Below are positions 12,951-22,874 of a stretch of 22,874 bases of DNA, piece after piece. Origin of the DNA: Thraustochytrium sp. TN22 (lineage: Eukaryota > Sar > Bigyra > Thraustochytrida > Thraustochytriidae). Position numbers and translations under genes: made by a program. Each line of letters starts with the position of its first letter. Position 1 is the first letter of the stretch. Below the pieces are notes generated by a model that made no database searches, had not been told where the DNA came from, and was given only the letters and a program-made list of their open reading frames with translations. Location of the stretch: NCBI GenBank assembly GCA_013306675.1, contig JABLUY010000384.1, positions 1-22,874 of the forward strand, written 5' to 3'.

Positions 12951-12968
12951 AGCGTGAGAGAGGAGAGC

Positions 12969-13814
12969 ATGGCGGCCACGGCGGCGCGCGTGTTCGTGGT
13001 GACCGGGGCCAACCAGGGGCTCGGGTTCGAGACGGTGCGCAAGCTCGCACGGCTGGAAGGGCTGCACACGGTGCTCACGTCGCGCAGCGAGGACAAGGGC
13101 AAGGAGGCGCTGGAGAAGCTGCAAAAGGAGGCGCCCAAGGCAAGCCTGGAGATGATGCAGCTGGACCTGGACAGCGACGAGTCGCAGGAGAAGTTCGTGG
13201 ACGCGCTGCGTAGCAAGCACGGCAAGGTGGCCTGCCTCATCAACAACGCCGGCCTGGCCTTCAACTCCAAGAGCAAGGAGACCTTTGAGGAGCAGGCCGT
13301 GCCGACGCTGCGCACCAACTTCTTTCAGACGCTCAAGTTCACCGAGCGCATGCTGCCGCTGCTGCAGCACGCCGAGAACCCGCGTATCGTCACGGTGGCT
13401 TCGGAGATTAGCAACTCTGCCTTCAAGCAGTGCAGCAAGGAGATGCAGAAGAAGCTCACGGCGCCCGAGCTCCGCATCACTGACCTGCTCGACCTTGCTG
13501 GCGACTACCTCAAGGCCGTGCAGGAGGGCAAGAGCCTTGAGGAGCTTGGTTTCCCCACCAACAACTACGGCATGAGCAAGCTCCTCGTGCGCCAGTACAT
13601 TCGCGTCTACGCCAAGATGCATCCTGAGATTCAGATCAACTGCGTCGACCCGGGCTGGTGCTCCACGCGCATGGGCGGCGAAAAGGCCACGCGCACGCCC
13701 GAGCAGGGCGCAGAGGTCTTTGCCTATGTCGCTACCCAGGAAATTGGCAACACCAGCGGCGAGATGTGGCGCGACAACCAGCAGCAGCCGCCGCTCAGGC
13801 CTCAGGAGGACTAA
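12969..13814 (+). CDS. Carbonyl-reductase-like short-chain dehydrogenase (SDR)
   Basis: This 281-aa single-domain protein is a classical-type SDR that should reduce carbonyl compounds with NADPH in the cytosol. The nucleotide-binding motif TGANQGLG is at residues 12-19, NNAG at 92-95, and catalytic Ser at 145 (VASEIS). The Y-x3-K motif YGMSK has Tyr200 and Lys204. The long insert between Ser and Tyr and the segment DPGWCSTRMGGEKATRTPEQ are characteristic of the carbonyl reductase 1 (CBR1) branch, whose members are about 277 aa with similar catalytic spacing. Start at the ATG at 12969; the frame upstream has no ATG. The substrate cannot be predicted. The gene is convergent with eL18. Confidence 0.93.
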   Translation: MAATAARVFVVTGANQGLGFETVRKLARLEGLHTVLTSRSEDKGKEALEKLQKEAPKASLEMMQLDLDSDESQEKFVDALRSKHGKVACLINNAGLAFNSKSKETFEEQAVPTLRTNFFQTLKFTERMLPLLQHAENPRIVTVASEISNSAFKQCSKEMQKKLTAPELRITDLLDLAGDYLKAVQEGKSLEELGFPTNNYGMSKLLVRQYIRVYAKMHPEIQINCVDPGWCSTRMGGEKATRTPEQGAEVFAYVATQEIGNTSGEMWRDNQQQPPLRPQED

Positions 13815-18920: not shown

Positions 18921-20119
18921 ATGCAGCGGTCGCTATCCTCGACGCTGGAGGATGGGCCTCTGCGCATCCAGGACCCGAGCAGGCTGGCCGCGGCGCGGCG
19001 CGGGCCGGACGCCGACAGCGTGGACGACGACGACGAGGAGGACGACGACGAGCTGATGGAGGACAACAAGTCGAATGACGACGACGACGACGACGGCGCC
19101 GTCAAGAAGGTGACCTCAGACGGCGCCCAGTTCTCGCCGCGCAAGGCGTGCGCCGAGGAGGTGCTCTCCTTCACGCGGCACAAGACCACGCAGAACGGCG
19201 ATGCCAAGGATCTGGGCGCCGGCAAGGCCGCGCCGCCGCCGCTCTCGTCCCCGGGCGCCTCCTGGAAGTCCGCGTCGCTGGCCGCGCTCTCGCCCAAGCC
19301 GCCCACGCCGGCGGCCGCTGCGGCCTCCTCCGTGGCCGGTGCCTTCAAGAGCAACGGCGCGACCGCGACCTCCGCCTCGTCCAGCGCCTCGGCGGCTTCG
19401 GGTGCCGCCAAGGACGGCGAGGAGGACGGCGCAGCCCGCGCGGCGCAGGCGAAGGCGAAGCAGGTGACAGGGGAGAGCGACAACAAGGGGTCCGCTGCTG
19501 CTGCTGCTCCTGGCGCTCCTGGCAGCAAGGAGCAGGATGACGCGCAGGCCAAGGGAACTCAGGCGGCGGGCGGCGGCAAAGGCGAGAGCGCACTCAGGGT
19601 CAAGTCGGAGGCCGTGGGCGGAGATGCCGAGGCGGACAGCGCCGAAGCGCGGCTCGCCGAGGCGGCGCTGGAGCTGCGCAAGGCCGTGCTGGAGGGCGAC
19701 ACGGACACCGTGCGACAGCTCATCGCCAGTGTAGAGGACGAGGCGACGCGCGACAAGATGGTGAACGAGCACCACGACGGCTTCAGCACGCTCATGGTGG
19801 CGGTCTCGTGCGAGAAGGGCAAGCTGGACCGCGACCTTGTACTGGAGCTGCTGCGCGGCGGCGCGCGCGTCACGCCGCGCGACCGCGTAGGCAACACCGC
19901 TCTGCACTGGGCCTCGCTGCACGGCCAGCTGGCCGTCCTGGACGACCTCGGCGCCACGGACGCCGCGTTGCTTGCGCTCGCCAACGAGGAGGGCGACACG
20001 CCGCTGCACCTCGCGAGTCGCGCGGGCCACGCAGACGTCGTGCGGCAGCTCATCCAGCGCGCCTTGGAAACGGCTGGCGGCGGTGTCAAGGCGGAGCACG
20101 GCGGCGCGGAGGCCGCGGC

Positions 20120-20154
<35 letters not shown>

Positions 20155-22241
20155 CCACGCCCTCGCCAGCGTCCGGCTTGTCCATCTCCGCGCCCACGGG
20201 CCAACGGCTGCCGGAGGGGCTGCAAAAGCGCAAGGATGCGGCCCTCAAGCTCATCCCGGAGCAGGAGGCGAACGCAGAGCAGCCACCGGCCTCGCTGGTG
20301 GCGCGCAATCTCGAGGGCGAGACCGCCTTTGATGCGGCCGCGCGCGATGTGAGCGGTCGGCTCAACCACGACGTGCGCGCGCGCGTGCAGCTGGAGTTCT
20401 GGAAGGGCAGCAAGTACTTTCGCACGTTGGTGCTACACCACCCGGATTGCTTCGACCACGTGCCGGTGGGCGACGACGACCGCGACGTGTGGGAGGCGCC
20501 GGAGCGCATCGCCGCCATCCTCGAGGAGTTGGCCGGCAGCGAGAGCTTCGACTCGGTGGTCATCAGCTCCAAGTTCGCACGCGCCTCGCGCGACATGATG
20601 ACCAAAGTGCACTCGGCCAAGTACGTGAGCATGGTGTACGCGCTGTCGGAGGAGCTCCAGGGCAAAGGTCCGGTGGCCTTCACGCCGCGCGTGCAAACCG
20701 GTGTTAAGCAGAACAAGGGCAAGGAGATCAAGCGCGCCGAGTACTCAGACACCTCCTTCTCGGCTGGCTCGCTGGACGCCGCGCTGCGCGCCAGCGGCGC
20801 CGTCTGCCACGCCATCGACCGGGTCGTGGAGGGCAAGCACCGCAACGCCTTTTGCATCGTGCGCCCGCCCGGCCACCACGCCGGCCTGGAGGGCCTGCTC
20901 GACTCGGCGAGCTCCTGCGGCTTTTGCATCTTCAATAACGTCATGGTGGGCGCCGTGCACGCGCTCGAGCGCTTTCCGGACACCATCAAGAAGGTGGCCA
21001 TCGTCGACTTTGACGTGCACCACGGCAACGGCACCGAGGAGATCGTGGCAAAGCTCAACAAAAAGGCGCTTGCCGAGCAGCGCGCGCGCGGCGAGGCGCC
21101 CAACCCGCCCTTCCTCTTCTTCTCTTCGCATGTCTTCGACGGTGCGCGCCCCAGCAGTTCGTACGAGTTCTACCCAGGCAGCGGCCAGCACTCGGACGCG
21201 CTCGGCAACATCATCAACGCGCCCATGATGCCGCTCTGGCGCCGCCGCGGCTCGCGCACTGGCAAGGGCCAGGCCGCTGCGCAGGCCGCGCTGCAGGAGC
21301 CGGAGGACCCGCTCGCACCCAAGCGCGGCCGCCGCAACTGGGCGCAGCGCTTCTACTTTGACCACTTCGGCCGCACCGAGTTCCGCCGCATCATCAAGGA
21401 GCGCCTGCTCCCGCCGCTGCGTGCCTTCCAGCCCGACCTCATCCTCATCTCCGCCGGCTTCGACGCCGGCCGCCGCGACGTCGGCAACGGCCGCTTCATG
21501 GGCCACTTTTGCTCCGGCTTCGACCTCCAGCAGCAAGACTTCATGTGGGTCGCCGGCCAGGTCTCCAAGATGGCCAACATGTGCTGCCAGGGCCGCGTCA
21601 TTTCCGTGCTCGAGGGCGGCTACGGCCGCATCGACAAGTCCATTGACGCGCGCATGATGCGCGTCGACCGCACCTCGCTCGCGCGCAACGTCGTCGCCAA
21701 TCTCGCGGGCCTCATCAACCCGCTCGCCAAGATGGAGGCCGACCCGGAGGAGTCCGACTCCGAAGACGAGGCCACCAAGGAGCACGAGGAGAAGCAGCTC
21801 CAGCGCCGCGGCCGCAACCGCAAGAAGCCCAAGCGCTTCGAGAACGAGGTTGCGCCCGCCAACAAGCGCCGCAAGCGCCGCGGCCAGGACGAGTCCGATG
21901 AGGAGAGCACCGAGTCTGGCGCCTGGAAGCGCCGCCGCAAGCCCGCGCCCGTTGCCGCTCCGGCCGCTCCGGCCGCCGCGCCCGCCGCCGCGCCCTCCGC
22001 CGACGCCACGGCCGAGAAGCGCGAGATGGCGCTCGCCTTTCTGCGCAAGGTCAAGACCAAGTTCTCCGAGGACGACTCCGTCTACAAGGACTTCCTCGTC
22101 ATCATGGGCCACTTCAAGTCCCGCACGCTCGACGTTCCCGACGTCATTGCCAACGTGCGCCGCATCTTTCGCAACGACCCCGAGCTCATGCGTGAGTTCA
22201 ATGACTTTCTCCCGCCCGGCTACAACGCTGGATCCAGGTGA
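18921..22241 (+). CDS. Histone deacetylase with ankyrin repeats and a C-terminal PAH domain
   Basis: This 1106-aa protein should remove acetyl groups from lysines in the nucleus. An in-frame TAG (18903-18905) just upstream supports the ATG at 18921. In order: an acidic/Ala-Ser-rich disordered region (1-250); ankyrin repeats (about 288-385; GNTALHWAS at 324, GDTPLHLAS near 358); a Ser run (about 401-413); and the deacetylase domain (about 495-930). Catalytic residues are complete: His652/His653 in RPPGHHA, zinc ligands Asp698 and His700 in DFDVHHGNGT, Asp848 in SAGFDA, and Tyr901 in EGGYG. This Tyr argues for an active enzyme, not a class IIa type with His there. Basic nuclear-localisation stretches follow (RKKPKRF, KRRKRRG). 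Residues 1034-1102 form a Sin3-type paired amphipathic helix (AFLRKVKTKF, VYKDFLVIMGHFKS, FNDFLPPGYN). The domain is HDA1/class II-like; subclass is uncertain. The stop overlaps a splice-donor-like AG|GTGAGT, so a further exon is possible. Confidence 0.93.
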
Positions 22242-22630: not shown

Positions 22631-22874
22631 GCTTACGGCGCAGATCTGTGCCTCTTACGGCACAGATCTGTGCCGTCTGTGCCGTAAGACTCGCGGCACA
22701 GATCTTACGGCACAGATCTGTGCCGTAAGGCTCTTACGGCACAGATCTATGCCGTAAGGCTCTTACGGCACAGATCTGTGCCATAAGGCTCGCGGCACAG
22801 ATCTGTGCCGTAAGGCTTGCGGCACAGATCTATGCCGTAAGGCTCTTACGGCACAGATCTGTGCCATAAGGCTC
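22631..22874. repeat. Tandem array of short BglII-centred palindromes, truncated by the window edge
   Basis: Nine copies of a palindrome centred on AGATCT occur at 22642, 22664, 22700, 22714, 22743, 22772, 22799, 22826 and 22855 (first base of each AGATCT). The best unit is a perfect 26-base inverted repeat whose left half is CTTACGGCACAGA. Units are joined by short linkers such as GCT. Spacing settles at 27-29 bases in the distal part and is irregular (14-36) at the proximal end. Substitutions include TCTATGCC, GTGCCATAAG and a CGCGG replacement of the left end. No coding frame explains it, and the array continues past the window end. Confidence 0.95.

Follow-up and report, generated by a model that had tools for sequence, protein, structure and literature searches.

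A probable fusion of an ankyrin-bearing, class II-type histone deacetylase with a Sin3 PAH1-type domain in Thraustochytrium sp. TN22

Sin3 recruits a separate class I deacetylase and, to our knowledge, the known Sin3 complexes have the scaffold and the enzyme on different chains. Short amphipathic helices in disordered proteins, among them Tet1 and SAP25, have been described as ligands of the first PAH domain (PAH1) of Sin3 (PMC13068551, PMC6168491), and patient variants of A126 and K155, in the PAH1 of human Sin3A, weaken binding of the Sin3-interaction domain, SID (PMC13068551). The human class II HDACs are described as not forming the Sin3 complex (PMC10707265). Uhrig et al. (2017, PMC5499015) described ankyrin-bearing class II HDACs in green algae and heterokonts, an earlier note on the DNA analysed here having believed that ankyrin-HDAC combinations exist in some protists, and nuclear localisation has been reported for this algal/heterokont sub-class (PMC5499015). 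The ankyrin proteins dealt with in PMC7339932 were also considered as a precedent for the ankyrin-HDAC combination, but were rejected, since those described there are ankyrin-bromodomain proteins rather than ankyrin-HDACs.

The DNA analysed (the window) is the whole of a contig of 22,874 bases (C315), which belongs to an assembly of 37.9 Mb in 453 contigs. A single forward-strand reading frame, uninterrupted between positions 18921 and 22241, encodes 1106 amino acids plus the stop codon, and its translation and Pfam matches define what we call here the ANK-HDAC-PAH protein, all features of which are given below on the forward strand. Its N-terminal region (residues 1-247, 18921..19661) is of low complexity, acidic and rich in Ala and Ser, with a positive codon score over residues 1-245. 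It is followed by ankyrin repeats (residues ca. 248-380, 19662..20060), recognised by Pfam and by alignment with a paralogue encoded on contig C399, the best stretch corresponding to Ank_2 at residues 291-380 (E 1.3e-15, over the curated cut-off). A probable last ankyrin-like repeat (residues 457-490, 20289..20390) was located, after a Ser-rich insertion, by alignment to the C399 protein. The histone deacetylase domain (residues 525-902, 20493..21626) gives a Hist_deacetyl match with an E-value of 1.6e-59 and 202.1 bits, against a cut-off of 27.9, and the PAH-like module lies at the C-terminus. The ankyrin repeats, the deacetylase and the PAH that the earlier note had placed in one chain were thus all recovered over curated Pfam cut-offs, and their E-values exclude chance for each of the three domains.

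The deacetylase domain was recognised not only by Pfam but also by its PDB relatives and its catalytic residues. H652 and H653 are found in PPGHHAG, D698 and H700 in DFDVHHG, D848 in SAGFDAG and Y901 in LEGGYG, so that the catalytic set that the earlier note had read from the sequence is complete, each residue at its assigned position. We take D698, H700 and D848 to be the Zn ligands, H652/H653 the active-site His pair and Y901 the active-site Tyr. Among the 27 PDB sequences matched at E-values up to 1e-20, eight are best matched by the ankyrin part and 19 by the deacetylase part, the latter being entries for HDAC6 (13), HDA1 (3), Clr3, HDA15 and BuphA.10154.a.B1 (one entry, taken for bacterial). 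The presence of HDAC6, HDA1, Clr3 and HDA15 among these relatives leads to a class II assignment, and the sequence as a whole points to a Zn-dependent deacetylase of class II type with putative activity. Reading of the sequences also revealed a variable insert within the domain, after the PLW motif (residues ca. 774-814, 21240..21362); the paralogues on contigs C399 (L011) and C433 (L013) carry variable, partly low-complexity inserts at the same place.

The C-terminal module (residues 1034-1102, 22020..22226) was characterised by Pfam, by phmmer and by a structural model. The Pfam PAH core covers residues 1054-1097 (22080-22211) and profile positions 2-45 of 45, with an E-value of 3.7e-12 and 46.2 bits against a cut-off of 21.3, while a match to a second PAH-like family, PAH_ZNF598, stayed under its cut-off (13.4 versus 25 bits). 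A phmmer search of residues 1030-1106 against PDB sequences rendered 17 distinct sequences at E-values up to 1, all of the Sin3 family, with a best E-value of 3.1e-26, and in all five of the displayed alignments, four of them with SIN3 entries and one with Pst1, the first PAH outscored the second and third. Residues 1037-1102 align without gaps with the first PAH of both yeast SIN3 and Schizosaccharomyces pombe Pst1. In a comparison with the Sin3 encoded in the same genome (contig C121), identity amounts to 34/73 with PAH1, 23/75 with PAH2 and 12/69 with PAH3, and by sequence the pocket is of PAH1 type. A126 and K155 of human Sin3A presumably fall on A1037 and K1066, which have the same 29-residue spacing. 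The protein is not itself a Sin3: Pfam detects in it a single PAH stretch and no match to Sin3_corepress, the true Sin3 being that on contig C121.

The predicted fold agrees with this assignment. AlphaFold2, run on residues 1030-1106 as a single sequence without templates, renders a four-helix bundle (helices at residues 1031-1047, 1053-1066, 1072-1082 and 1087-1096) with a mean pLDDT of 87.3 and a pTM of 0.74. The best Foldseek match of this model in the PDB is Sin3B PAH1 with NRSF/REST, with an rmsd of 2.0 A over 68 columns and a TM of 0.74. Foldseek returned 54 PDB matches at E-values up to 10, of which one (9.5e-4, the Sin3B PAH1 entry) is under 0.001 and those ranked 2 to 16 range from 1.6e-3 to 1.7; the best 16 of the 54 are all Sin3-family or Sin3-complex entries. 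As modelled, the region folds as a four-helix PAH bundle, and the earlier reading of a PAH-like module therefore holds in both sequence and predicted structure.

Between the deacetylase and the PAH lies a linker (residues 936-1033, 21726..22019) that is acidic at first and then basic, with three K/R clusters at residues 961-1010 that resemble nuclear localisation signals. The continuity of the frame through this linker has a bearing on whether the fusion is real. It can be the case that it is an artefact of the gene model or of the assembly, with PAH and HDAC belonging to separate proteins as a result of a hidden intron, separate transcripts or a chimeric contig. The end of the contig lies only 633 bases beyond the stop codon, within a repeat, and open frames arise easily in GC-rich DNA: across this GC-rich contig there are 95 ORFs of at least 100 amino acids, many of them antisense. 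Since long open frames are cheap in such DNA, what carries the claim is not ORF length but the codon signal together with the domain matches. The two domains, nevertheless, share one stop-free frame. To score codon use, eight conserved cores from seven other deacetylases and Sin3 of this genome served as the training set. The resulting score favours the ANK-HDAC-PAH frame with positive values in all eight regions scored, which exclude residues 456-494. In the linker, which shows a coding signal in this frame, the score is 0.48, against -1.04 in both remaining forward frames and -0.16, -0.08 and -1.04 in the reverse frames; in the PAH it is 0.70, against -0.25 or less in all other frames. The ankyrin part scores 0.45, with one reverse frame weakly positive (0.08), and in the Ser-rich spacer (residues 386-455) one reverse frame outscores the ANK-HDAC-PAH frame (0.28 versus 0.17). 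Third-position GC remains between 0.84 and 0.96 in each 50-codon block from residue 201 on, with no break at the HDAC-PAH junction. The stop codon comes 9 residues after the end of the Pfam PAH, so that this domain could not be the start of a downstream gene without splicing. Moreover, single open frames also hold the domains of Sin3 and the deacetylase domains of nine of the ten other deacetylase genes, that on contig C234 being split between two frames. An artefact is, in view of these data, very improbable, and the HDAC-PAH fusion, known from one genome, is very probably real as judged from the sequence.

The contig ends in a palindromic tandem repeat of ca. 29 bases (unit TCTTACGGCACAGATCTGTGCCGTAAGGC) that is present in 6.1 copies at positions 22703-22874 of the window, with a related 22-base array nearby at 22632-22674. 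This repeat probably broke the assembly. Elsewhere in the window, a forward-strand frame at 12954-13814 encodes a short-chain dehydrogenase (adh_short, E 7e-30), which was the only one with Pfam matches over cut-off among the ten other frames scanned out of the 95 listed.

A six-frame profile search of the genome, a procedure that ignores introns and whose counts are therefore lower bounds, rendered 13 deacetylase matches, which we count as 11 genes. In a tree of the 11 deacetylases the ANK-HDAC-PAH protein pairs with the C399 protein (95/96), and these two group with the proteins of C433 and C85 (99/97). With a midpoint root, the ANK-HDAC-PAH protein and five others are split from five class I-like proteins (100/100), the class labels being our own reading of the tree. 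A domain scan of seven of the ten other deacetylases (all except those of C432, C234 and C444) found ankyrin repeats in the C399 and C85 proteins and none in the C433 frame. The ANK-HDAC-PAH and C399 proteins share 46% identity (195/422), and a whole-genome PAH search found no PAH in the latter, which is the nearest paralogue. That search gave four matches in all, three in the Sin3 frame and one in the ANK-HDAC-PAH frame, and in six frames no PAH was found on the contigs of the ten other deacetylases. Given the lack of a PAH match in the C399 protein, the sub-class is not characterised by a PAH. The simplest reading of these sequences is that the PAH would have been gained on the ANK-HDAC-PAH branch after its split from C399, although it may instead have been lost from C399.

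Two further paralogues have unusual deacetylase domains. That on contig C444 (L014:367-2682, forward strand), which groups with the class I-like types, is devoid of the catalytic residues, with S, M, G and L opposite D698, H700, D848 and Y901, respectively, and S opposite H652; from its sequence it looks like a pseudo-deacetylase. The domain of the class II-like deacetylase on contig C179 (L016:823-3324) lies in one open frame, in which a long insert of low complexity interrupts it.

Apart from its three PAHs, the Sin3 frame of the genome contains a Sin3_corepress and a Sin3a_C domain. The genome also gave two matches of SAP30 type and, for Sds3, a partial one (profile positions 18-109 of 217), all over cut-off. 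Taken with Sin3 itself, these suggest that an ordinary Sin3 complex probably coexists with the ANK-HDAC-PAH protein.

Other large frames were observed in the same genome. A single frame of 3044 amino acids on contig C124 reaches a total of 2539.7 bits over its length in matches to the omega-3 PfaA synthase family, whose cut-off was passed in none of 14 control genomes. Near it, on the opposite strand, a frame of 2083 amino acids gives partial omega-3 PfaA matches, and we take the pair to represent the OrfA/OrfB arrangement of thraustochytrids, which makes a thraustochytrid host, and with it a heterokont one, most likely. An open frame of 5691 amino acids on contig C410 (ca. 25857-39995) has eight partial omega-3 PfaA matches among those listed, a pattern as would be given by a modular polyketide or fatty-acid synthase.

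The explanation that we consider best, and reasonably probable, is that a nuclear class II HDAC with ankyrin repeats has gained a PAH1-type pocket through which it is recruited by SID-type helices without Sin3. An ankyrin-bearing class II deacetylase of the heterokont/algal kind would have been the starting point, to which a C-terminal pocket of Sin3 PAH1 type was added. The basic clusters at residues 961-1010 would take the enzyme into the nucleus, where the four-helix bundle of the PAH would bind a short amphipathic helix of SID type in a DNA-bound repressor or adaptor. Through such binding the enzyme would reach its target with no need of Sin3, and the ankyrin repeats may constitute a second, separate docking surface. 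Since the human class II HDACs stand outside the Sin3 complex, a PAH of its own would supply the enzyme with what its class lacks. The proposal of the earlier note, that the protein could bind repressor motifs directly and bypass Sin3, is plausible.

PAH domains can also bind adaptor subunits, however, so that a bypass of Sin3 need not follow. The PAH might instead attach the enzyme to some corepressor-complex subunit, either a SAP25-like adaptor or a partner from the Sin3 complex, in which case the deacetylase would join the Sin3 complex instead of bypassing it. The genome retains Sin3 together with the SAP30-type and partial Sds3 matches, and SAP25 is an adaptor bound by PAH1 (PMC13068551). 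Binding to SAP30, on the other hand, is a property of PAH3 according to the title of entry 2ld7, and PAH3 is the domain that the ANK-HDAC-PAH pocket resembles least (12/69). We consider this docking unlikely, even if it is the next most likely explanation after direct recruitment by SID-type helices.

A regulatory role of the PAH was also considered, in which it would fold back on helices of its own chain, producing autoinhibition, or would link two copies of the protein. In the stretch LAEAALEL (residues 245-252), found where the ankyrin part starts, the spacing is L-x-x-A-A-x-x-L, presumably that of the Mad1 SID. This pattern occurs twice in the protein against 0.75 matches expected, but among 1000 block shuffles a fraction of 0.18 also attain this count, and a second, ad hoc pattern gave no matches against 0.48 expected; the pattern scan detected within the ANK-HDAC-PAH protein no SID-like motif above chance. 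In addition, Mad1 is bound by PAH2, as stated in the title of entry 1g1e, whereas the pocket described here is PAH1-like. A regulatory module of this kind seems quite improbable.

If the pocket serves instead for direct recruitment by SID-type helices, it could compete with the PAH1 of Sin3 for the same repressor helices, so that a given repressor would have a choice of two enzymes, a class I deacetylase by way of Sin3 and the class II enzyme directly. We put forward such competition tentatively, as a possibility that falls short of being probable.

No description of an HDAC-PAH fusion was found among the titles and abstract openings listed in searches of open-licence PubMed Central text. What was already known is the ankyrin-HDAC part; what we have not found described is a PAH on a deacetylase. 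Viral and prokaryote collections were searched for relatives of the whole protein with six seed peptides, chosen outside the PAH; one search rendered none, and the other, among the matches listed, rendered one, of residues 664-710 at 43% in a Sphingomonas contig. These collections, which are devoid of eukaryote genomes, say nothing on how common the ANK-HDAC-PAH architecture is. If the proposed competition with the PAH1 of Sin3 takes place, a single protein would act as a shortcut through the Sin3 corepressor system. A natural fusion of PAH1 and a class II HDAC would make it simple to test whether repression requires nothing more than recruitment by a PAH pocket, and it would also show how a new corepressor can arise by the move of one domain.

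With regard to known systems, the ANK-HDAC-PAH protein resembles the sub-class of Uhrig et al. (2017, PMC5499015) in having ankyrin repeats N-terminal to a class II-type deacetylase and in its heterokont-type host. It differs in its PAH domain, which goes unmentioned in the main text of that paper, where 'PAH' has no occurrences and 'paired amphipathic' has one, in the reference list. The ANKRA2/RFXANK proteins and the class IIa HDACs likewise link an ankyrin surface with a class II deacetylase, but there the ankyrin protein is a separate one that is described to bind a PxLPxI/L motif (PMC12066720), and a motif scan showed this motif to be absent from the ANK-HDAC-PAH protein. With Sin3 and its PAH1, finally, the protein has in common the module itself, with its four helices, PAH1-type sequence and same predicted fold; whereas Sin3 carries several PAHs and a corepressor domain, the ANK-HDAC-PAH protein would carry one PAH directly on a class II enzyme.
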